A model generated the notes under the pieces. The model did not search any database. It was given only the letters and a program-made list of their open reading frames with translations, and was not told the DNA's origin. Below, piece after piece: positions 6,650 through 33,303 of a DNA stretch of 43,000 bases; positions within the stretch are counted from its first letter, which is position 1; every line of letters starts with the position of its first letter. The stretch lies in IMG/VR virus record IMGVR_UViG_3300023440_000009, positions 1-43,000 of that record. The stretch is one strand, 5' to 3'. The stretch comes from a virus. The position numbers and the translations under genes were made by a program.

Positions 6650-6949
6650 TTATTTGATGATGTAGATTACTCTAGTACTAAAAAAATCAAGTCCGTAATT
6701 AGGGTATCTTCCGATACCTAGCTGTGCCCCATTAGAGAAGTGGTTCCATTCAGTTTGGAGCACAATATTTTCTGTCAACTGGGTTCTATTACCGACGCTA
6801 ATGTGGAATTGTTCGTGTCCAGTTAGGTGTGTCTTCGGGATATTAGCTACGTAGGCTGGCCCAATGCCTACTTCTAAGCAACCAGAAAGACAAAGGGCCA
6901 GCGCAACAATCGCAACTTTAAATCCCGCAGACACCCCCTTTGCAAACAT
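6650..6949 (-). CDS. Predicted outer-membrane lipoprotein with PagL-like lipid A deacylase signature
   Basis: From the ATG at 6949 the 99-residue protein has a short signal peptide (MFAKGVSAGFKVAIVALALC) and a lipobox LSGC with the lipidated cysteine at residue 24. The mature part contains EWNHFSNGAQLG and RYPNYGLDF. The H-x-S-N motif (His70, Ser72) followed by an N-x-G resembles the active-site region of PagL-type lipid A 3-O-deacylases, which also use a Glu I cannot place with certainty. The usual family is longer (about 150-185 residues) and not lipidated, so this would be a short derivative. The N-terminus overlaps the 3' end of nrdJ by 32 bases in another frame. An alternative is a small Rz1-like lipoprotein. 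Upstream starts at 6967 and 6976 are possible. Confidence 0.55.
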   Translation of the reverse strand: MFAKGVSAGFKVAIVALALCLSGCLEVGIGPAYVANIPKTHLTGHEQFHISVGNRTQLTENIVLQTEWNHFSNGAQLGIGRYPNYGLDFFSTRVIYIIK

Positions 6950-7780
6950 TTTCTGCGGACTCTTCATAAACAGCATTCTGTTTTTTTACGGCCTCATCAT
7001 AAGGAACAGCAACAAGAGGCTGCCCACCTCGAGCACCATTAGGATATACAGTAATACCACGGAGTCTTTCGCAATAGTTTGCAAGCGTATAAGCCAATTG
7101 CTTAGCTGTGTCTTCATTATTCTCCTCCGTACCCCACTCTGGGAGATTGATTGTTGAACTAATCCCCATATCTACATACTGCTGAATGTCTGCCTGAAAT
7201 GCGATGCGCTTTTCAGGAGTTGCTGCAAGAGACATCGCTGTCTCAATGCTATCCGGAGAGAGTCCGTGTTCTTTAATAATACGCTCTGCAGTCGGGTCGA
7301 TTACGAATTGATATTTCCATCTGTTTCCGTCAAGGAATCTTCGCTTGTAGGCGACTGTATAGATTGGCTCAATTCCTGTAGTCGTTGACGCAAGGATTCC
7401 GATTGTACCCGCAGGCGCAACAGCTCTGTATTTGCGTGGGCGATTGATGTAGAATCGGTCACAATGCTCATTTGCCGCTGCTTCAGACTCTTCGGCGTAA
7501 ACTCTAAGCCATTCATGAAGCTCTGGTACGACTTCGTATCCATAACCACGCTGAAGCAACCATTCGTGGAGTCCCATGAGGCCGAGGCCGATCTTCCTGT
7601 TGCGCTCTCGTACCACCCGAACTTTCTCGTAGGGGAGGTCTCCACGCAGAGTGCCACACACAAGAAACTTAGCAGCGAGATGTACCACGTCTCTGAGCTC
7701 ATCAATTGTGGAAATATTAGCCACATTGATAGAACCAAGATTGCAAACGTCACTATCGTCCTCAGAAGTAAATTCCGTAC
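6918..7780 (-). CDS. nrdJ: Class II (B12-dependent) ribonucleotide reductase, exon 2
   Basis: This is the 3' exon of nrdJ. Joining 9351-8571 to 7780-6918 keeps the frame and gives about 547 residues. The exon starts with GT, which completes the split codon for the catalytic cysteine: exon 1 ends RNA-T and exon 2 adds GT-ACG-GAA, restoring N-A-C-T-E, the NxCxE active-site motif. Twelve residues later lies the redox cysteine in DVCNLGSIN. The motif PAGTIGILASTTTGIEP (residues about 370-385) and the C-terminal pair VCKGGVCGI, which re-reduces the active site, are typical of the family. The enzyme makes deoxyribonucleotides using adenosylcobalamin. Its 3' end overlaps the lipoprotein gene. A free-standing start at MANISTID would lack the catalytic cysteine. 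Confidence 0.9.
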
Positions 7781-8570
7781 CAAACGTTCATATGTCCTGT
7801 CATTTCTGAACAGGCCCCGTGTCACCACGGGTATCGGACTATCTCACCACCCTTTTCAGGGGCCGAACACACGACTAAGGCAGCTTATATACGAAGCTCG
7901 GTTTGACGAAAGGCTGAACACCACGTTTAAATTTCTCGTAATCCTTAGCCCGTAGTGTGAGAAACCATCTGTGGTAGTGCCTATGAATATTCCACTCAAG
8001 GTCCAGCTTATCTCTAAGTGCCTTCTTTAGTAAGAGTTGATCTCCATACGAAAGCCGTTTTAAATTGAGTTTCGCTGCGGGGGTGGCGTTACAACGTCTG
8101 TCTACATTACACGAACCATCGTCCATAAACAGAATAGCGAGCATCTCCCAATCAAGAAGTTTTAGGTAATGGGGATCTACAGACTTATAATTGCCGACAT
8201 ATAGTCTGTTACGCACTCGCGTATACATTGGATGTGTTCGTGTTAACGTACACAAAACTGGTTGCCTATTCTCTCGATGATCATTGGTCTCATAGACACG
8301 AACATGTGTAAGGTTTGAGAGAATATCCGCTCGCCACCCAATATAGTCTTCGTGTTTCGCAAGTTGGTTACACACGAAACGACAGTGCTTTCCGGAGTAA
8401 TAAACTCCACCATCTCCCATCACAAAGGCACTTACATATTTCGTCAATTCACGCTTAGTCATAGTCTCTACACCTCCCATAACGGGTTGGCACGGGATTG
8501 GGTCAGTGACCTTTCCCCGTTTTTCGTTCGGTTATTCGACGCTGATTACTCAGCGAAGGCGCATACATTT
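7781..8570 (-). ncRNA. Group I self-splicing intron in nrdJ
   Basis: A 790-base insertion interrupts the catalytic cysteine codon. Exon 1 ends with U at 8571 and the intron ends with G at 7781, as the class requires. P1: exon GCGU pairs with intron GCGC (intron positions 9-12) with U.G at the splice site, extended beyond one mismatch by GAA/UUC. P10: exon 2 GUAC pairs with intron GUAU (positions 5-8). P7: GACUAU (8466-8461) pairs with AUAGUC (7842-7837) in a context like the T4 phage introns. P9: CCCGUG, GUGA tetraloop, CACGGG (7831-7816), followed by a second hairpin CCUGU/ACAGG. The endonuclease gene lies between the two P7 strands, in the P8 loop region. Confidence 0.9.
7875..8462 (-). CDS. 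LAGLIDADG homing endonuclease inside the nrdJ intron
   Basis: The 195-residue protein has two LAGLIDADG-type helices, KYVSAFVMGDGGVYY near residue 10 and EMLAILFMDDGSCN near residue 115, each ending in the acidic residue that binds the metal. Two motifs in one chain indicate a monomeric enzyme that would cut intronless nrdJ alleles and promote copying of the intron. I start it at 8462, where ATG follows GGAGG by 10 bases; an in-frame ATG at 8480 lacks a ribosome site. The start codon lies on the 5' strand of the intron's P7 helix, so translation initiation and intron folding compete. The reading frame is intact, so the element may still be mobile. Confidence 0.88.
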   Translation of the reverse strand: MTKRELTKYVSAFVMGDGGVYYSGKHCRFVCNQLAKHEDYIGWRADILSNLTHVRVYETNDHRENRQPVLCTLTRTHPMYTRVRNRLYVGNYKSVDPHYLKLLDWEMLAILFMDDGSCNVDRRCNATPAAKLNLKRLSYGDQLLLKKALRDKLDLEWNIHRHYHRWFLTLRAKDYEKFKRGVQPFVKPSFVYKLP

Positions 8571-9351
8571 ACGCATTCCGGCAAGTCTCATATTCATTCT
8601 CAAAGAAATTGTAACAGTGTCCAGGTTCTCCTGTTTCACACATTTTTCTAACAGACTCAAACCAGAGTTCTGGAAGCTCGTGTTCATACAGGCAGCATTC
8701 AACAAATTCAGTATCCCAGTTGATACTAATATTTGTCATATCCAAAGGAGCGGGAAAATTAAAATCCTGCTCCTTTAGTTTTTTAATTTCTAGGGACCAA
8801 TCCTTGATTTTTATAAAGTCCCAAATGTCCCCATGCTGCCAATTCAAGGAAGCAAAAATTGCAGAACGGCGTGAACCCCCTTGACGTACATTGCGCCCAA
8901 TTTCATTGATGCTGCACATAAGAGGGATGGGACCAGAAGCCACCCCGCCAGTTCGTTTAAGAACGCGGCCACTTTCCCGAAGAATTGAGTAATCAACACC
9001 GATACCACCTCCAGACATCAGGCAATCAGAGGCACGTTTACAAAGATTGCCCCACTCTTCTCGAGTATCTTCCTCGGCCTTTAGCGCGAAGCAGTTATTA
9101 TAAAACTTTGCGTCGCGTCCGGCATAGTAGAGATACCGTCCACCAGGAATAAATTTCATTTGGATAATATACTGAACCAGTTGGTCTTGATCATCCTTGC
9201 TCATGAGTGGTGGCAACGTACCCCAACGTGTGCCGCAGACATCTTCGACAAGTCTACGGGCAAGAATGGGCCAGGTATCCTCTGGCCCTTGCGCATATTT
9301 AAGACGGAATACATTTTCTGCGAATGTCGTTCTAAATTGAAACTTACTCAA
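8571..9351 (-). CDS. nrdJ: Class II (B12-dependent) ribonucleotide reductase, exon 1
   Basis: This is the 5' exon (260 codons plus one base). Visible motifs are FIPGGRYLYYAGRD, NNCFAL with the redox cysteine at residue 87, the SGGGIGVDYS substrate-loop region, and RQGGSRRSAIFASL, all expected for NrdJ. It ends ETCRNA plus T, directly before the catalytic cysteine. Without splicing, translation meets a TAA two bases into the intron. No N-terminal ATP-cone is present and no second subunit gene is seen, consistent with a short monomeric class II enzyme. The start is unusual: no ATG is available, and I favour the TTG at 9351, six bases after GGGGG; TTG at 9357 is the alternative. It feeds the deoxynucleotide pool with the nearby MazG and dATP/dGTP diphosphohydrolase genes. 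Confidence 0.9.
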
Positions 9352-9365
9352 CTCCAACCCCCAAC

Positions 9366-14617: not shown

Positions 14618-15352
14618 TTAAATTTTGAGTTTCTCAACGTCTCCCCACGATAACCCAGCTTCAGCATCTCCGTCAATGGGGACATTCATCTCCCAATTAA
14701 AATATTTCTTTGCTAACTCAGGCAATTCTCTGAAATACTTTAAACAAATACGCGCAACTTTTTCAACGTGCTTCTCCTCTACATCTATTATTATACTATC
14801 ATGCACAACATTTGTCAAGTAAATTTTTTCGGAGATTCCTTTTAACTCCTTCCTGATAAAAATTAGGGCCAGTTTTGCCAAATCACATGCGGTTCCCTGT
14901 ACTGGATAATTTCGTATCTGCCTTTCTGAGTAGTCTAGATAGCCCCCTTTTTGTGGTAGTTTCTTAAATTCCCAAATTCTACCGGTAGGCCCCCGATAAA
15001 GTCCCGTTCTACGAACTTCGCGAATCCATTCTTGATGTGCCGCAGAAAGCCCAGAGTATTTTTGGAAAAATCCTGTAAGAATATTTTTCCATTTTTCCTG
15101 CGAAAAGTTGGGCATCTTGGGGTCCATATAATAACCGTACCAGCCAGTCGCAGGATCACAATAAATTGCGCGAAAGTTGAAAATCTTGGCGTTTGATCTG
15201 TTAGCGTCATTGAGTGGCAATTCCATCAAGTTGACACACGTTGCTGTATGCTGATCTACACCATCCCACAATTCCTTGATCATGATCTGATCTTGGGATA
15301 ACGCAGCAGCAACACGCCATTCTATTTGCGCAAGGTCAACATCAAGAATCAT
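14618..15352 (-). CDS. DNA polymerase family A, C-terminal catalytic fragment (split gene)
   Basis: The 244-residue protein carries the palm and fingers of a Pol I-type polymerase: motif A (LDVDLAQIEWRVAAALSQ), motif B/O-helix (RSNAKIFNFRAIYC) and motif C (NVVHDSIIIDV). It begins exactly at motif A with ATG, two codons after an in-frame stop, and needs the exonuclease-thumb fragment encoded at 15985-17169. Unusual residues: the normal F-G-x-x-Y-G of the O-helix is F-R-A-I-Y-C, motif A lacks the usual Tyr-Ser (DLAQ instead of DYSQ), and motif C has Asp-Ser instead of Asp-Glu. The two metal-binding aspartates, the Arg, Lys and Tyr of motif B, and Phe at the E. coli 762 position remain, so activity is plausible when both parts assemble. 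Confidence 0.88.
   Translation of the reverse strand: MILDVDLAQIEWRVAAALSQDQIMIKELWDGVDQHTATCVNLMELPLNDANRSNAKIFNFRAIYCDPATGWYGYYMDPKMPNFSQEKWKNILTGFFQKYSGLSAAHQEWIREVRRTGLYRGPTGRIWEFKKLPQKGGYLDYSERQIRNYPVQGTACDLAKLALIFIRKELKGISEKIYLTNVVHDSIIIDVEEKHVEKVARICLKYFRELPELAKKYFNWEMNVPIDGDAEAGLSWGDVEKLKI
14790..14818 (-). promoter_or_regulatory. Consensus sigma70 promoter inside polymerase motif C
   Basis: On the minus strand TTGACA (14818-14813), 17 bases, TATAAT (14795-14790): a full match to both hexamers. It lies within the codons for the catalytic motif VHDSIII. It would serve the genes at 14214-14606 and downstream. Confidence 0.6.
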
Positions 15353-15527
15353 CTTTTAGGAAACACTCGTTGAAATAAAATTTCCAACAGTCTTTACAGG
15401 AATGATTTTCGTTCCACGAATCATCATCACAACAAATATATGGTTCTGGCGGACAAGTACCCTCGGCTGCAAGGAAAGTACATGCAACATCCAAGGCTTT
15501 CTCCAGTTGTTCTGTTAGTGCACCCAT
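15342..15527 (-). CDS. Small Cys-rich protein inserted in split polymerase, third gene (61 aa)
   Basis: I start this at ATG 15527 (MGALTEQLEKALDVACTF), nine bases after AAGGG; ATG at 15536 is too close to that site. The product contains GTCPPEPYICCDDD and NHSCKDCWKFYFNECF, seven cysteines in 61 residues, probably a small metal-binding domain. The stop codon overlaps the start of the polymerase C-terminal gene by 11 bases, so translation of the polymerase fragment depends on this gene. It has no endonuclease motif. Confidence 0.7.
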   Translation of the reverse strand: MGALTEQLEKALDVACTFLAAEGTCPPEPYICCDDDSWNENHSCKDCWKFYFNECFLKDDS

Positions 15528-15532
15528 AACCA

Positions 15533-15757
15533 TCATCCCTTCCGAAGTTCATTCAAAAGATACTCACGAATGAGGCAACTACCACCATTCACGATCACAG
15601 CATCGTCATGTGTGCATCCACAACCACAGTAAAAACTTGGTTGCTGTGTCTTAGGACAGATTTGATATTCCTCTTCTTCCCAAAACATGCATGCATCTGT
15701 CATACAATTGTCTTTTTTAAAGATACAATATTTTCTTTCTGCTTGTCCGTACAGCAC
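15533..15757 (-). CDS. Small Cys-rich protein inserted in split polymerase, second gene (74 aa)
   Basis: The start is GTG at 15757, about seven bases after AAAGGGG. The 74-residue product has about ten cysteines, including YCIFKKDNCMTDACMFW and PSFYCGCGCTHDD, suggesting one or two bound metals. It is followed without a gap by the next small gene. The cluster of three such genes separates the two polymerase fragments. No known family or homing endonuclease signature is seen. Confidence 0.72.
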   Translation of the reverse strand: MLYGQAERKYCIFKKDNCMTDACMFWEEEEYQICPKTQQPSFYCGCGCTHDDAVIVNGGSCLIREYLLNELRKG

Positions 15758-15769
15758 TCCAAACCCCTT

Positions 15770-15949
15770 TCAAAAATGCTCCTCATCTTCATCGGTTGCT
15801 GCCCAGTATACTTTGCCCATAAACCCTATTCGCTCAAACTCGGTCAAATACCCATCTACCGTTGTCTCTGGAGGAGCTTTGCACCTTGGGCATCGAGCAC
15901 ATTTCTTTTTTGTGTTCGGCTTACAGGGCTGGCAAAACTCGAACGCCAT
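15770..15949 (-). CDS. Small Cys-rich protein inserted in split polymerase, first gene (59 aa)
   Basis: This 59-residue product begins MAFEFCQPCKPNTKKKC and continues ARCPRCKAPPETTVDGY, with three CxxC-type knuckles in the first 25 residues, then an acidic tail (AATDEDEEHF). It starts 35 bases after the stop of the polymerase N-terminal gene. The ribosome site is the weak GGGGAGAC. It is the first of three tiny Cys-rich genes between the polymerase halves. Confidence 0.68.
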   Translation of the reverse strand: MAFEFCQPCKPNTKKKCARCPRCKAPPETTVDGYLTEFERIGFMGKVYWAATDEDEEHF

Positions 15950-15984
15950 CTAGTTTGTCTCCCCACTACAAATTATTTCCCGAA

Positions 15985-17169
15985 CTACTGCAGGCATGTA
16001 TTGCGCGCCTCTGCAAATCGAGTCACAAAACACTTTTTTACTGGACCTGTATTTCCTCTTGGGATGTTCTGACCATTCGGATTCGACGAACTAAACCGAG
16101 ATGTCGCAGTTACAGTGTTATTGATAGTTGGATGAATTACCCCATCAATCTGACGTTCGTACAATCCAATGAAATACATAGATAGAAGCTGACTCATTCT
16201 ACTACGCTCATACAGCAATTCAACAACACGCTTCTGCACCTTTGTCTTTGGCTTTAGCAGAGAGAGTGCCTGCACATTTGTTTCGTAAATCCCCGCATGT
16301 TTAGTTTCACTAATCCCTAATCTTTTAGGATCAAAGCCAATTCCTTTGACAAGCTTGTCTACTTTACACTTTCGCGTATAGGTTTTCACCTCCCCGCTTT
16401 TTAGTGTGCGAGTATACTCTTCAACTCCATCAACCTTGTAGGTGCCGCCGAACAATCCGCAAGAAAGCTGCTGTGCAGACCCTGGATTTTCAATACCAAG
16501 CAGTTCGGAAAGCTCTTTGTCAATTTCTTCTAGAGTCCTACTATACTCATCTTTATAAGAGCACAAAGTCTCCAAATCAAGAGCCATTCCATTATATTCC
16601 ATTGCAGCGATAGCAGGAATAACAGCCATGTCAAGCGAGATAGGAGTTTCAAGTTGCTGTTCTTTGATACTTTTTACTTGGCGTTTGAAAATTTCGAGGC
16701 AGAGCACCGTGTCTTTGACGACATACTCAAGCAGAATATCCAAAGGAATATCTGGAGTATCAATACCTTTGTTCCAGAATTCTGCAACACGGTCATCTTT
16801 CTGCCCCAATCCGTATTGCTCAGCGAGCGCATTGAGGGACAATCCATCAAGGCGCTGATGGTGTCGGATCACATATTCTGCAGTCTGCGTACAAAACAGA
16901 AGTTTATTATCAATGTCAATCCCAAGATGATGTAACCACATATAATCAAACTTGAGATTGTGTGCAATAATCCGATCCGCTTTTTTTAGGACTTCCTCGA
17001 ATCGATACAACTCCTCTCGAAAAGATTTGTAGCTATCTTTGTGATAAAAGACAAAAGTATCAGAGTGCCCAGTATCAGTTACCACAGCAGCGCACACTGC
17101 CTGTGAATCGGGAATATATGGAAGGTGTTTAGGGTCTTTTGTGGTCTCAAAGTCAACTGCGATATTCAC
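15985..17169 (-). CDS. DNA polymerase family A, exonuclease and thumb fragment (split gene)
   Basis: The 394-residue protein has the 3'-5' proofreading motifs IAVDFETTKDPK (Asp/Glu), RIIAHNLKFDYMWLHHLG and LEYVVKDTVLCLEIF, then the thumb and first part of the polymerase domain, including TATSRFSSSNPNGQNIPRG. It stops after KKCFVTRF plus nine unrelated residues (AEARNTCLQ), just before where motif A should follow. Comparison with E. coli Pol I suggests only about four residues are missing between this end and the C-terminal fragment. The start is GTG at 17169, overlapping the helicase stop (TAGTG). Three Cys-rich genes separate the two fragments; no group I intron pairing is visible, so two proteins that associate is the simplest reading. 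Confidence 0.88.
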   Translation of the reverse strand: MNIAVDFETTKDPKHLPYIPDSQAVCAAVVTDTGHSDTFVFYHKDSYKSFREELYRFEEVLKKADRIIAHNLKFDYMWLHHLGIDIDNKLLFCTQTAEYVIRHHQRLDGLSLNALAEQYGLGQKDDRVAEFWNKGIDTPDIPLDILLEYVVKDTVLCLEIFKRQVKSIKEQQLETPISLDMAVIPAIAAMEYNGMALDLETLCSYKDEYSRTLEEIDKELSELLGIENPGSAQQLSCGLFGGTYKVDGVEEYTRTLKSGEVKTYTRKCKVDKLVKGIGFDPKRLGISETKHAGIYETNVQALSLLKPKTKVQKRVVELLYERSRMSQLLSMYFIGLYERQIDGVIHPTINNTVTATSRFSSSNPNGQNIPRGNTGPVKKCFVTRFAEARNTCLQ

Positions 17170-18413
17170 TATCCAATATACCTCCCAGAATACCTATCAA
17201 GAACCACAACACCTCTCAGTTTTTCAGGTGGGACCGCCTTTTGTTTATTCTTACAAATATTGATGTACCTGTTTTCGGAATCTCCATGCTCCTTTCCGAT
17301 GCCAATAATATAATCAAATGCCCCGGGCTTACCCGTTTTACCGGAATCAAGATTCGACTGATAAAGCCACCGCTTCCCTTCAGCAGCAGCATCAGCCTGT
17401 CCAACAGTAATACAATCAATCTTCCATTGTTCGTTCATACGGATAATCATAGCCCTAATCTTATCGTAGAGCATCTTCAACCTATCCGCACCATTCCCTG
17501 CTCTACCCTCACCACGAAATGAAATCTTATCTCCCTGATCAATTGCGACGACCCGAGGACGATACTCCACGCACAACTTTTCAATTTCATCTAGTGTCAA
17601 AATGTCTTTTGTAATAAGGTGAATACGAGAACCGCCACGTTCAAGAAACTCCTCATTGGTAGCTCGCACGTCTGCAAGAATCTCTTCTTCTGGCTTACCA
17701 AGCATCGCGCAATGTTGCCTGATTAGAATTTTATTCGGTGCTTCTTCATTATTAAACCAGAGAATGCAAGCGTCACCTGCTAACTGCTCAGCAAAATTTG
17801 TAAGTTCCGAATGAAGAAACGACGTCTTCCCTGTCTCTGGTCTTGCGAAGACGTGTCCATGACTGCCACCAGGCAAAGGGCCGAGTGCTTCCTGTAGAAG
17901 AGAAAGTCTCCATGAAAGCCCGTCTTCTGCACGCTGCGCAAGAGCAGCTTCTAGACTCTTATCAAAAATAATACTATCCGGCTCTTCTTGCTCTTTCAAC
18001 TGATCCTGATATTTTTTTATTGTCTCTTCTAAATCTCCGAAATCAAGATTGTCAGTTTCCTCTGAAATAATAGGAATTAGTTTGTTGCAGATTTCTGCAG
18101 CACAAGTCTTGCGCACTAGTTTTTTAATATACTCCAGCGCAACGTCGTTAGAAACTTCTTGCGCGTAGATTACATCAATAAGATCTTGGTACTCTTCTTT
18201 CTTCGCATATGGTGGAAACTCAATTGCAAAGAAAGATTTGAACTCATCTTGCGCGATGTATGTATGATCTGGAAATGTTGCGTAGTAGTTTTTTATTGTA
18301 CGCAGAATGATTTTATGCGTAGTTTCAAGAGCAGAATTTTCTACAAGGGAAACGTATTTTTCAAACGTTTCCCTCTTTCTTAGAAATAGTTTTAGAATAA
18401 TAAGTTCTATCAT
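17169..18413 (-). CDS. DnaB/Twinkle-like replicative helicase
   Basis: The 414-residue protein has a helical N-terminal half and a RecA-like motor: Walker A HVFARPETGKTSFLHSEL (residues 188-204), ILWFNNEEAPNKILIRQ, Walker B PRVVAIDQGDKI (Asp292), and DCITVGQADAAAEGKRW as the later sensor region. The Walker A has Pro-Glu before TGKTS instead of the usual small residues. It would unwind the phage fork with the primase encoded separately just upstream, whereas T7 fuses both. It follows AGGAG by eight bases and a consensus promoter (18472-18500), making it the first gene of a strongly expressed helicase-polymerase unit. Confidence 0.88.
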   Translation of the reverse strand: MIELIILKLFLRKRETFEKYVSLVENSALETTHKIILRTIKNYYATFPDHTYIAQDEFKSFFAIEFPPYAKKEEYQDLIDVIYAQEVSNDVALEYIKKLVRKTCAAEICNKLIPIISEETDNLDFGDLEETIKKYQDQLKEQEEPDSIIFDKSLEAALAQRAEDGLSWRLSLLQEALGPLPGGSHGHVFARPETGKTSFLHSELTNFAEQLAGDACILWFNNEEAPNKILIRQHCAMLGKPEEEILADVRATNEEFLERGGSRIHLITKDILTLDEIEKLCVEYRPRVVAIDQGDKISFRGEGRAGNGADRLKMLYDKIRAMIIRMNEQWKIDCITVGQADAAAEGKRWLYQSNLDSGKTGKPGAFDYIIGIGKEHGDSENRYINICKNKQKAVPPEKLRGVVVLDRYSGRYIG

Positions 18414-28233: not shown

Positions 28234-28260
28234 GATCCCGTCCATAGCAAAGAGCATAGG
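28234..28260. repeat. Inverted repeat 1, right arm
   Basis: GATCCCGTCCAT, three bases, AAAGAGCATAGG, complementary to 27697-27723. It lies 25 bases before the start codon of the enclosed gene, in its leader. Two bases separate it from inverted repeat 2. Confidence 0.9.
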
Positions 28261-28262
28261 CT

Positions 28263-28290
28263 GTTGACGGCTCTTGACGAGGCACCTTGC
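28263..28290. repeat. Inverted repeat 2, left arm
   Basis: GTTGACGGCTCTT, five bases, GGCACCTTGC. The reverse complement occurs at 28516-28543 with 13 + 10 identical bases. The arms enclose the gene 28299-28499. Confidence 0.9.
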
Positions 28291-28298
28291 GGTTAGAG

Positions 28299-28499
28299 TT
28301 AATAATTAATCGCCTTTATGTAATCTGCATGACTGCGAAAGGCTACATGAGCAAGCGTCCCCTGCTCATCCTCATCATGACGGACGATTACAGGGACGTT
28401 TGTTTCGGGCGTTCTTTGCGGACCCTCAGGCAGGCCCGCAAGCCAAAAATCCCGGCTCGTTGTCGCGTCAAATTCAACAATACGCCAGTAAAGGCTCAT
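28299..28499 (-). CDS. Small protein bracketed by inverted repeats (66 aa)
   Basis: The start ATG 28499 follows GAGGTG. The 66-residue product begins MSLYWRIVEFDATTSRDFWL and ends HVAFRSHADYIKAINY; it looks like a small alpha-beta protein. It is the most upstream gene of the leftward arm, a place where phages often encode early host-takeover proteins. The ribosome site sits in a possible hairpin GCACCT...AGGTGC (28527-28501), which could limit translation. The whole gene lies between arms of a 28-base inverted repeat. Confidence 0.72.
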   Translation of the reverse strand: MSLYWRIVEFDATTSRDFWLAGLPEGPQRTPETNVPVIVRHDEDEQGTLAHVAFRSHADYIKAINY

Positions 28500-28515
28500 A
28501 TGCACCTCACTTTCT

Positions 28516-28543
28516 GCAAGGTGCCCCCTTAAGAGCCGTCAAC
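28516..28543. repeat. Inverted repeat 2, right arm
   Basis: GCAAGGTGCC, five bases, AAGAGCCGTCAAC, complementary to 28263-28290. It lies 16 bases before the start codon of the enclosed gene. Confidence 0.9.
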
Positions 28544-29010
28544 TGGGTATTCCCAGGTATGTCAAAGATCATCGCCCAGCGCTACAGAATTCTGCAACGC
28601 CTCGCGCGCCCTATTCTATATGCAGACCCTGTGCCAACATCAGATATGGTACAAATGTAGTATAATTATCATATAATTAAGCATAATTAGACCTAATTGT
28701 AACCAATATCTGGTACAGAAAAAGACGGAAATCTGTCACTAGCACAAGTAAAACTGTTAAAAATCTGTCAATACAGTTATATCAAGCAGTTACACTGGAA
28801 ATGTAATTATAATTATGCTTAATTATGGTCCTAAAGCCCGTGAACGATGACAAAAATCTGTCAAAATGGCACGCCAGTTGCGCCAATATCTTTGCATTCA
28901 TATATATGGAAAATCATATGTTTGTATGCAAGATGTGTGCCAGAGCAAATACGCAAAAACCCTAGCGTTGCAGGAATCTGGAACGGGAATTCGGACAGGG
29001 AAAAGGCAAA
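28544..29010. promoter_or_regulatory. Non-coding regulatory region with inverted repeat and direct repeats
   Basis: No gene is supported here. It holds a 16-base inverted repeat TAATTAAGCATAATTA (28674-28689) and TAATTATGCTTAATTA (28810-28825); three direct copies of AAATCTGTCA (28729, 28761, 28854), two of which read TTGACAGATTTT on the minus strand and so resemble -35 boxes, though no good -10 box follows at 17 bases; CCAATATCT twice (28703, 28882); and two imperfect palindrome copies (28581-28598, 28967-28984). Most of it is AT-rich. It may carry leftward early promoters or operator sites. Confidence 0.55.
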
Positions 29011-29037
29011 AGAAAACCCGGCGACTAGGGCCGGGTT
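29005..29037 (-). terminator. Intrinsic terminator after the 31-aa peptide gene
   Basis: Minus strand AACCCGG, nine-base loop, CCGGGTT (29037-29015), followed by TTCTTTTGCC. It closes a single-gene unit with the promoter at 29193-29221. Confidence 0.85.
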
Positions 29038-29066
29038 AACGAAGGATTGGTGATAGATTGTAGGGA

Positions 29067-29162
29067 TTAGAAGAAGATCAGCTTTGCAAAGAGCAGGAAC
29101 GGGCCAGCAACGCCGATACCCATCAGTCCCAGAATGATACCATCAACGATACGTCCGATCAT
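29067..29162 (-). CDS. 31-residue single-span membrane peptide with its own promoter
   Basis: The product is 31 residues, beginning MIGRIVDGIILGLMGIGVAG and ending PFLLFAKLIFF: almost entirely hydrophobic with one Arg, one Asp and one Lys, so a single membrane helix. ATG 29162 follows GGAGG by five bases, a strong site. A promoter with perfect -35 and 17-bp spacer lies 31 bases upstream and a terminator follows, making a complete one-gene unit between the origin-like repeats and the leftward operon. Possible roles are superinfection exclusion, membrane depolarisation or inhibition of a host membrane protein. It is too short for family assignment. Confidence 0.78.
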   Translation of the reverse strand: MIGRIVDGIILGLMGIGVAGPFLLFAKLIFF

Positions 29163-29192
29163 AATCGCCTCCATTTGTTAGGGTTCGGGTTC
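29163..29192 (-). promoter_or_regulatory. Short leader of the 31-aa peptide gene
   Basis: About 25 bases lie between the predicted transcription start (near 29186) and the ATG. They include the strong GGAGG ribosome site and a repeated GAACCC/GAACCCT sequence. No stable hairpin is seen. Confidence 0.5.
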
Positions 29193-29221
29193 CCTATATC
29201 AGGGTTTTGTGTCCCTGTCAA
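29193..29221 (-). promoter_or_regulatory. Sigma70 promoter for the 31-aa peptide gene
   Basis: Minus strand TTGACA (29221-29216), 17 bases, TATAGG (29198-29193). It reads toward the peptide gene and, if its terminator leaks, toward the leftward operon. Confidence 0.82.
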
Positions 29222-29322
29222 GCAAAAAAATCTTCTCCGGGCTCTTTCATGCATGCCCAGGTATGTGCGGGCACACATACGCACGCATATATTGCATTCT
29301 TCGTGCCAAGTCTCTTTAATCC

Positions 29323-29397
29323 TGTGGATATCTTGTTGATAGCTTGTGCATAGCTTGTGGATAGGCTGTTGGCATCCTGTGGACAGGCTGTGGATAA
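29323..29397. other. Putative replication origin: seven DnaA-box-like 9-mers at 11-bp period
   Basis: Nine-mers start at 29323, 29334, 29345, 29356, 29367, 29378 and 29389: TGTGGATAT, TGTTGATAG, TGTGCATAG, TGTGGATAG, TGTTGGCAT, TGTGGACAG, TGTGGATAA. The last is the exact complement of the DnaA box TTATCCACA and most others differ at one to three positions. All have the same orientation and exact 11-base spacing, one helical turn. An AT-rich stretch (29460-29515) follows. No gene is supported in 29222-29482. Confidence 0.78.
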
Positions 29398-29482
29398 AGC
29401 CCCGGGGGGAGGGGATTCGGTTCATGAAAAAAAGGAAAAGATACCCTTTCTTGGCACGACGTAATTTTTTTGGTTTTAGGTA

Positions 29483-29511
29483 TTGACTTTTCTTTAAAAA
29501 TATGGTATAAT
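29483..29511 (+). promoter_or_regulatory. Sigma70 promoter of the rightward (structural) operon
   Basis: TTGACT (29483-29488), 17 bases, TATAAT (29506-29511). It is the only strong promoter found on the plus strand and reads into the terminase and virion genes. Confidence 0.9.
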
Positions 29512-29515
29512 ATTA

Positions 29516-29611
29516 GTAGAAGTAGTAAGATAGATACTTACTACATACTACTTCTACCGCGCTAATACAAAGCGCGGATAGCTAATACAAATTGCTAATC
29601 GGGGGAGGTCT
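29516..29611 (+). promoter_or_regulatory. Structured leader of the structural operon with repeated hairpin loops
   Basis: The transcript starts near 29518. GTAGAAGTAGTA (29516-29527) pairs with TACTACTTCTAC (29546-29557), 12 bp at the 5' end. Then CCGCGC-TAATACAAA-GCGCGG (29557-29577) and TAGC-TAATACAAATT-GCTA (29579-29597) form two hairpins that share the loop sequence TAATACAAA. The ribosome site GGGGGAGG follows at once. Confidence 0.68.
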
Positions 29612-29617
29612 ATCCTT

Positions 29618-30085
29618 TTGAAAAAGGATCATAAAACTATGCGTGCGCAAACTAAAGAAGAAACTAAATCTTCCCGCAAAGCGGGAAAACCTAAAGGTTC
29701 TCGCAATAAAAAGACTCTTGAATTGTTCGCACTTCTGGATAAGGGATACGAACCTGAGCATGCCTTTAAGCTGGTTTACGGAAAACTACCCGCGTACAGG
29801 ACACAGAAGCATCACCTACAGGAGTATCGCAAGCATGTTGCTGATCGTCCTGAGATCGTTGAGGCGGCGCATCAGGCGTTGGAAGACGCCTTGAAAATGA
29901 AGCCGATTAAACGGAAAGGCGAAGTTATCATGCCTAACTATAACACCAGGATGCAGGCAATCAAGATGGTACTGGATCGAGTTGATCCGGTGGTAAACAT
30001 CAATCATAATTTGAATGTGACGAAACATCTGGCTCCTGTTGATTTGGAGAAATATAAAACTGTTGATGCCGAGGTAGTAGAATGA
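29618..30085 (+). CDS. Putative terminase small subunit
   Basis: The 155-residue protein has a basic N-terminus (KSSRKAGKPKGSRNKKTLELF) that leads into a likely helix-turn-helix (LLDKGYEPEHAFKLVYGKLP), a helical centre and a C-terminal assembly part (NYNTRMQAIKMVLDRVDPVV). DNA-binding helix plus oligomerisation region at the head of the structural operon, before the large terminase, fits the small subunit that recognises the packaging site. The start is probably TTG 29618, nine bases after GGGGGAGG; ATG 29639 with a weaker AAGGAT site is the alternative. The TTG lies in a small hairpin ATCCTTTT/AAAAGGAT. It overlaps the next gene by four bases. Confidence 0.68.
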   Translation: MKKDHKTMRAQTKEETKSSRKAGKPKGSRNKKTLELFALLDKGYEPEHAFKLVYGKLPAYRTQKHHLQEYRKHVADRPEIVEAAHQALEDALKMKPIKRKGEVIMPNYNTRMQAIKMVLDRVDPVVNINHNLNVTKHLAPVDLEKYKTVDAEVVE

Positions 30086-31761: not shown

Positions 31762-33303
31762 ATGATTGACTTTGAGCCGAGAAAAGATTGTAAATACAAA
31801 TACAATTATGAGGCCATCTTTCGGGATGTGGCAAATAGCGAAATCCCAATAGAAGCGGCAGTTCGTAACCTGTGCCTAAATGATTTGTTTTTCATTGTCT
31901 ATTTCATCATGGAAATCCCTCCCGCAAACCACCCATTTGTGGTGGATATGTGTCGTACCGTGGAGGAAGGTCCAAAAACAAAAACGCTGGATATCTGGGC
32001 ACGTGAGCACTTTAAGTCTACGATTATTACGATGGCGGAGACTGTCCAAGCGATTCTCCGTAATCCAGAGTGTACGACTGCGATCTTTTCGTTTAAGAAG
32101 CCGGCCGCCACTAAATTCCTAGACGGGATTCGGAAAACCCTTGAGAAACCGATTCTTGTTCAGGCATTTCCTGATATTCTGTACGAGAAACCCGATACAC
32201 AAGCCCCTGTGTGGTCATTAGAAAATGGGATTCGAGTTAAACGAAACAGTGTATCCCGTAAAGAGAATACAGTAGAGGCTTTTGGTCTTGTTGAGGGGAT
32301 GCCTACCGGCGGCCACTTCGATCGTCGAATCTATGATGATATTGAGACAGCTGACTTGGCAAAGAATATTGAGCAGCTGGATCAGTGTTTTTCTCAGTTT
32401 GAGTATTCAAGTTATCTTGGAACAGATGGTGGTATTGAACGGGTGATTGGGACATATTACCATCATGCTGGGCCGTTGAAGAGAATCCAGGATAAGAAAA
32501 CAGTACATGGTACGCCCATGTACTACACAAGAATTATTCCTGGTTCTGATGATGGAACAAAAGACGGAAAACCTGTTCTCGTTAGTCAGGAGCGGTGGGA
32601 AGAGCTGAAGGTTGGTGAACACTTTAATCAACAGATTCTCTGTGACCCAACCCCCGCAACAGATAGATCACTGCCGGCAGACCAACTGATTGAGATGCCT
32701 CCTGAGGAACTTCCGCAGGATATTTTGAAGTTTATGTTGGTCGATCCTGCTGGCGACCAGGCAACCCAGTCTGGAGATGATGCGTGGGCACTCGGGGTGG
32801 TTGGTGTTTCTCCACACGCAGATGATGCAGGTGCGAGCGACGTCTATATTCTTGATCTCGAAATTCGCCCCATGACCCACGCAGAAGCCATTGACGAGAT
32901 TGCACGTATGTATCTTCGCAATGGTGTTGTTATGGCGCTTGGCGTGGAGAAGGTTGGCCAGAGTACGGCAGAGATTCATATCGCAAATGCACTACGTGCC
33001 TATAATCGTCATTTGTCTATTGATGCTGGGACACTTCGGATCTTGTCCCCCAAAGGGAGAAACAAAGTTGATCGGATTGTTCAGGCACTGCAGTGGCCGC
33101 TGAACAATGGAAAAATCCATTATCTAAGTACGCTAAAACCAGAAGCTATTAATCGTCTCAAACAGGAAATGGACATGTTCCCTGTTTGGCATGATGATGG
33201 CCTGGATATGTTGGCGTACCTGTACGATATTATCAAAGACTATCGGTTTGCAAGAACTCGAAAGTTGGAACCGCTTCCTTATGCTAATACAGGGGTTGTT
33301 TAA
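31762..33303 (+). CDS. Terminase large subunit
   Basis: The 513-residue motor has an N-terminal ATPase with a variant Walker A, LDIWAREHFKSTIITM (residues 77-91), and Walker B RRIYDDIETADLA (188-200). The C-terminal RNase H-like nuclease shows KFMLVDPAGDQATQSGDDAW (Asp328), MALGVEKVGQSTAEI (Glu396) and DMFPVWHDDGLDMLAYLYD (third acidic group). It drives DNA into the prohead and cuts the concatemer. The start follows the methyltransferase stop directly, and its own stop overlaps the portal start (TAATG). The circularly permuted look of the genome would agree with headful cutting. Confidence 0.93.
   Translation: MIDFEPRKDCKYKYNYEAIFRDVANSEIPIEAAVRNLCLNDLFFIVYFIMEIPPANHPFVVDMCRTVEEGPKTKTLDIWAREHFKSTIITMAETVQAILRNPECTTAIFSFKKPAATKFLDGIRKTLEKPILVQAFPDILYEKPDTQAPVWSLENGIRVKRNSVSRKENTVEAFGLVEGMPTGGHFDRRIYDDIETADLAKNIEQLDQCFSQFEYSSYLGTDGGIERVIGTYYHHAGPLKRIQDKKTVHGTPMYYTRIIPGSDDGTKDGKPVLVSQERWEELKVGEHFNQQILCDPTPATDRSLPADQLIEMPPEELPQDILKFMLVDPAGDQATQSGDDAWALGVVGVSPHADDAGASDVYILDLEIRPMTHAEAIDEIARMYLRNGVVMALGVEKVGQSTAEIHIANALRAYNRHLSIDAGTLRILSPKGRNKVDRIVQALQWPLNNGKIHYLSTLKPEAINRLKQEMDMFPVWHDDGLDMLAYLYDIIKDYRFARTRKLEPLPYANTGVV

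Follow-up and report, generated by a model that had tools for sequence, protein, structure and literature searches.

The window, a 43,000-nucleotide stretch of an IMG/VR virus record (IMGVR_UViG_3300023440_000009), carried two arms of genes diverging from a gap at 28250-29618. The left arm encoded a split DNA polymerase, a DnaB-like replicative helicase (17169-18413, minus strand; phrog_19), a primase and a cluster of amidoligase, COOH.NH2 ligase, glutamine-amidotransferase-like and RimK-like genes. The right arm encoded terminase, portal and structural proteins, including the large terminase subunit (31762-33303, plus strand; phrog_38). The gene at 29618-30085 (plus strand) was a probable small terminase subunit (terS) of 155 aa; it had no family hit and was recognised by its position, by motifs judged by eye, and by LUZ24 annotation and gene order. 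The gap lay upstream of this probable small terminase gene, the position of a phage terminus or packaging site. A 127-bp end repeat closed the record into a circle of 42,873 bp, the size given in the first-pass annotation; because 127 is a common assembly k-mer size, the ends of the record are not evidence of physical ends. The order of functions matched that of Pseudomonas phage LUZ24 gene for gene, and the convergent early and late arms, the amidoligase, COOH.NH2 ligase and RimK genes, the split polymerase and a LUZ24-type portal (about 28-30% identity to the LUZ24 group) were those of a LUZ24-like podovirus. No close named relative was found at the DNA level, and a prophage search with the terminase returned no match that would reveal the host. 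The record contained no DnaA C-terminal domain, in line with the earlier statement that a DnaA-like gene is absent; an initiator gene near the array, as in a bacterial-type origin, was likewise not found. Two left-arm genes were interrupted. Ribonucleotide reductase (6918-9357, minus strand) was in two pieces, 8569-9357 (model positions 2-99) and 6918-7724 (model positions 385-520), flanking a LAGLIDADG endonuclease gene (7875-8480); the interruption is probably an intron or intein. DNA polymerase A (14618-17169, minus strand) was split into ORFs at 15985-17169 and 14618-15352 with two small ORFs between; the LUZ24 polymerase is also in pieces.

Within the gap, seven tandem DnaA-box-like 9-mers occupied 29323-29397 (plus strand) at a pitch of exactly 11 bp, starting at 29323, 29334, 29345, 29356, 29367, 29378 and 29389. 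From left to right they read TGTGGATAT, TGTTGATAG, TGTGCATAG, TGTGGATAG, TGTTGGCAT, TGTGGACAG and TGTGGATAA, and were separated by the 2-bp spacers CT, CT, CT, GC, CC and GC. The last box (29389-29397) was the exact complement of TTATCCACA, so a perfect consensus stood at the right end of the array. The others were weaker: matches to TGTGGATAA numbered 8, 7, 7, 8, 5, 7 and 9 of 9, with the box at 29367 the poorest. The register ended cleanly on both sides. The summed in-register score was 51/63, far above chance, given that the best seven-box score in 300 first-order Markov genomes was 37 and that periods of 9, 10 and 12-15 bp in the window itself gave at most 36. Both the two-base spacing and the perfect final box reported in the first-pass annotation were thus upheld, as was the placement of the array between divergent arms with an AT-rich stretch and the late promoter nearby.

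A G-rich run, GGGGGGAGGGG, began 5 nt past the last box (29403-29413, plus strand), and a third conserved part, ACCCTTTCTTGGCACGACGTAATTTTTT, followed at 29443-29470 (plus strand). The stretch from 29431 to 29550 was about 65-80% AT. A sigma-70-like promoter, TTGACT-17-TATAAT (29483-29511, plus strand), preceded the structural (late) arm, and a second, TTGACA-17-TATAGG (29193-29221, minus strand), would drive a short leftward transcript. This transcript held a 31-aa hydrophobic ORF (MIGRIVDGIILGLMGIGVAGPFLLFAKLIFF; 29067-29162, minus strand) with a Shine-Dalgarno-like GGAGG; its promoter lay at 29221-29193 and a terminator-like hairpin at 29037-29015. A 12-bp hairpin (GUAGAAGUAGUA..UACUACUUCUAC; 29514-29558, plus strand) would open the late transcript; the leader containing it folded at z = -5.1, and its left arm resembled the DnaA-trios TAG-TAG-AAG-TAG-TAA. 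Further left, at 28729-28863, AAATCTGTCA occurred three times, one copy as the palindrome TGACAAAAATCTGTCA, and the corresponding gap of a relative (L531, 1602-1658) held three TGACA-N5-TGTCA palindromes; both sets are possibly operators of a phage regulator. An Rfam search of the gap gave chance-level matches only, a tRNA search found none, and no special DNA fold was found in the G-run region.

Same-orientation boxes with 2- or 3-bp gaps, as found here, are the arrangement of low-affinity DnaA arrays. In E. coli oriC such sites are separated by exactly 2 bp and lie on one helix face (PMC4451416). This corrects the earlier assertion that ordinary bacterial origins space their boxes unevenly. 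The oriC arrays (R5M-tau2-I1-I2, and C3-C2-I3-C1 with R4) share with the window same-strand boxes 2 bp apart and a strong box at one end; unlike them, the window has seven boxes in one run, in a phage, with no DNA-unwinding element (DUE) on the canonical side and no dnaA gene. ChIP work on E. coli DnaA showed a preference for box pairs with a gap of 2 or 3 bp and much poorer binding once the gap reached 4 bp (PMC11317965). When 2.9 million viral contigs were surveyed for three boxes in a row at a fixed pitch, pitches of 11 and 12 bp were each found in at least 120 contigs, compared with 8 contigs at 10 bp and 9 at 13 bp. With spacing left free from 0 to 30, dereplicated counts peaked at 11 (28), 12 (26), 20-22 (29) and 32-34 (19), with valleys between. 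Viral boxes therefore show DnaA's spacing rule and helical phasing, and the match to DnaA's own preference makes the register of the window array look functional. Tandem-duplication noise is an unlikely source of this register because boxes and spacers differ within the window while the period is exact, and because the 10- and 13-bp controls are rare.

Among published phages sampled from BLAST hits, the same box occurred in Arthrobacter phages, enterobacterial phages and Microviridae. In the Microviridae, the boxes lay just after the replication initiator gene (directly after it in bajarodmic virus 1126), and no terminase is annotated. Since no single terminase can explain a box with this distribution, a terminase as its sole reader is unlikely. 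Boxes at the same 11-bp spacing were seen at 3781-3815 of L559 and in similar records of these small ssDNA phages. In the T7-like phages phiEap-1 and FBKp16 (L252, 71-174; L256, 4093-4252), boxes were mostly 20-22 bp apart, about two helical turns, and sat either at the left end or in non-coding DNA ahead of the RNA polymerase gene. From the virus-wide spacing and the lack of a DnaA domain in the record, we infer that the window array probably binds host DnaA, in support of the first-pass proposal that the phage may borrow the host initiator.

The array and G-run recurred together. Among 138 dereplicated arrays chosen regardless of any G-run, 15 had one in the 50 nt on the last-box side and 1 on the other side; the frequency in random windows was 0.9%. 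A dedicated scan recovered boxes plus G-run in 46 dereplicated viral contigs, most of which carried a third motif of the type CC.CTCAGGCACAAAAAAG some 40 nt after the G-run. An automatic pattern detected this motif in 35 of the 46, at 34-42 nt past the G-run in 27 of those 35. The window's third part was matched by ACCCCTTCTAGGTACGAAGTAATTTTTT in the relative L002, and both were assigned to the looser motif of the other viruses by eye. Of 55 contigs with at least three boxes and a G-run, 33 had a terS-like motif downstream, at distances of 310-1470 nt that in nearly all cases did not exceed 770 nt. The composite was also present in L029, a lineage with practically no relationship to the window in terminase or portal, indicating that it recurs across lineages by transfer or convergence. 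As to whether close relatives lose the 11-bp period, a question raised in the first-pass annotation, the outcome was mixed. In L002 (TerL 71% identical) the array was retained with mixed 11/12-bp spacing and with no terS next to it; no such array was found in the gaps of four relatives with about 50% TerL identity, or in the LUZ24 gap. The array is thus dispensable in the group and an accessory of some lineages.

LUZ24 has a 184-bp direct terminal repeat in its divergent gap, and the related phage tf has one of 186 bp with the left end 5'-CCCCGG. The gap of the window is therefore the expected site of its physical ends. Bruynoghevirus LUZ24 and phage tf resemble the window in gene order and amidoligase cluster; unlike the window, LUZ24 has no box array in its gap. 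Boxes at or near genome or contig ends were seen in related or analogous viruses. The viral record G010 had an exact 146-bp end repeat that held the boxes and the G-run; its boundary stood immediately ahead of TCCCTCTCAGATACAAAA, at a distance of 42 nt from the last box. An independent contig, L386, stopped 45 nt beyond its last box, which comparison with its relatives showed to be the corresponding base, and on the opposite side the ends of G012 and G010 differed by no more than one base. L457, whose end is identical in sequence to that of G010, is probably the same contig and was not counted as independent. Seahorse, a cultured phage of Arthrobacter, carried four boxes spaced 11-12 bp and then GGGTGGGGGGAGG; its record ended on the right 48 nt beyond the last box, and terS started at position 64 of the left end. 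Seahorse resembles the window in this order of boxes, GGGTGGGGGGAGG, genome end and terS; unlike the window, it has an actinobacterial host, unrelated genes and no described short terminal repeat (its record starts at terS, and a cos-type end is assumed). Eight boxes lay inside a repeat present at both record ends of Berlinvirus A7 (Shigella phage Ship_A7, T7-like), and boxes also lay inside the annotated terminal repeat of Tequintavirus BF23 (T5-like). BF23 is similar in that consensus boxes, two of the three spaced 12 bp, stand within a terminal repeat and are flanked by divergent promoters; it differs in its 9.7-kb repeat, few boxes, unrelated genes and no adjacent G-run seen.

Arrays with the 11-bp pitch lay within 500 bp of a contig end in 19 of 65 whole contigs (9.8 expected) and those with the 12-bp pitch in 8 of 52 (7.3 expected); as a sign of termini this is only suggestive. 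The relatives are mostly metagenomic, and their contig ends may be artefacts. From the end positions in G010, L386 and Seahorse, we infer a terminus, or terminase cut, in the window at about 29443 (29442-29444, no strand assigned), 46 nt past the last box, which would place the array inside the repeat. The array would then be the first part of a composite element at a probable physical genome end beside the small terminase gene. According to a 2026 paper, repeats and DnaA boxes mark a proposed injection stop signal in T5 (PMC13250531). Apart from that remark, no box array next to a phage terminus was found described in open-access full text. DnaA boxes in T5 ends are thus already known, and the composite of boxes, G-run and third motif is apparently undescribed.

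The locus had been called a likely origin. That proposal was supported in part, for the DnaA-type boxes and the functional-looking register; an origin is a possible reading only. A cumulative GC-skew minimum, predicted near 29.3 kb, was indeed found at 28,899; it coincided with the switch of gene direction at the divergence, and the maximum lay at 5.5 kb, where the two arms converge, instead of at the antipode of about 7.5 kb. LUZ24 has a broad minimum around its gap too, with boxes absent there, and GC skew was therefore rejected as origin evidence, being confounded with gene direction and transcription. The G-run and the AT-rich side lay 5' of TTATCCACA, opposite to where a canonical DUE would be, and no AT-rich DUE with trios was found on the 3' side of TTATCCACA. 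A single DnaA-trio-like run, TAGTAGAAGTAGTAA, was present at 29514-29528, 117 bp from the array and inside the transcript-leader hairpin; it was not seen in L002 and was rejected as an origin part, also because it is in the wrong place.

Our preferred reading, which we hold with about even confidence, is that the window carries a host-DnaA array embedded at the genome terminus, most likely for replication at the joined ends. Host DnaA would nucleate on the perfect right-end box and extend from there, head to tail, along the weaker ones, as it does on the low-affinity sites of E. coli oriC. This would take place at the short direct terminal repeat of a LUZ24-like podovirus, probably within it, with the packaging cut about 46 bp from the array. 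After the ends join, in a circle or a concatemer, DnaA might open the DNA or load a DnaB-like helicase at the array, which would act as an origin or in copying the terminal repeat; this replication step is the least certain. A replication role is favored because the Microviridae arrays adjoin a replication initiator gene and because the phage has a DnaB-like helicase (17169-18413), a possible client of DnaA-directed loading. More tentatively, and with a rather low probability, host DnaA on the phased array could link replication to the processing of the ends, both terminase cutting and duplication of the terminal repeat.

Other functions were weighed against this reading. The array, G-run and third motif may form a pac or cos region. 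Terminase, or DnaA as an architectural factor, would then recognise the array, which would position the cut about 45 bp away or protect the end. IHF is such an architectural factor at lambda cos. The arrays upstream of terS, with a terS-like motif downstream in 33 of the 55 contigs, the tight distance from G-run to third motif and the ends at matching places past the last box (42, 45 and 48 nt) all argue for packaging; we nevertheless consider it unlikely, since Microviridae, for which no terminase is annotated, carry the same arrays, L002 has no terS adjacent to its array, box sequence and spacing track DnaA and not terminase, and LUZ24 packages without boxes. DnaA bound between the leftward (29221-29193) and late (29483-29511) promoters might instead repress or activate the divergent arms, with late timing set by host DnaA-ATP. 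Two promoter-like sites do flank the array, the BF23 boxes are likewise between divergent promoters, and DnaA is a known transcription regulator (PMC11317965). However, the -35 boxes lie about 86 and about 100 bp away, rather far for direct control, several phages have the boxes within the terminal repeat itself, and register and box number suggest a filament; we consider transcriptional control improbable.

Titration of DnaA is less probable still: multiplying phage DNA would soak up the initiator and halt new host initiations in a datA-like takeover. It fits the presence of several boxes on DNA that multiplies, and of arrays in many unrelated phages, but leaves the fixed terminal position, the G-run and the third motif unexplained. 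Least probable of all, and very doubtful, is that DnaA on the leading end pauses injection, in the manner of the proposed T5 stop signal with its repeats and DnaA boxes (PMC13250531). The array is near a probable genome end, but two-step entry is not known for the LUZ24-like group.

If the terminus-embedded DnaA array is real, the chromosomal initiator of the host has been recruited to genome ends repeatedly, in phages unrelated to each other. The array would then offer a direct test of DnaA in phage replication, terminal-repeat duplication or packaging, processes that, to our knowledge, are poorly understood except in T7 and lambda. On independent, evolutionary grounds, the spacing statistics confirm DnaA's 2-3 bp spacing rule across bacterial hosts, and boxes together with a G-run may be useful for finding the ends of assembled phage genomes.
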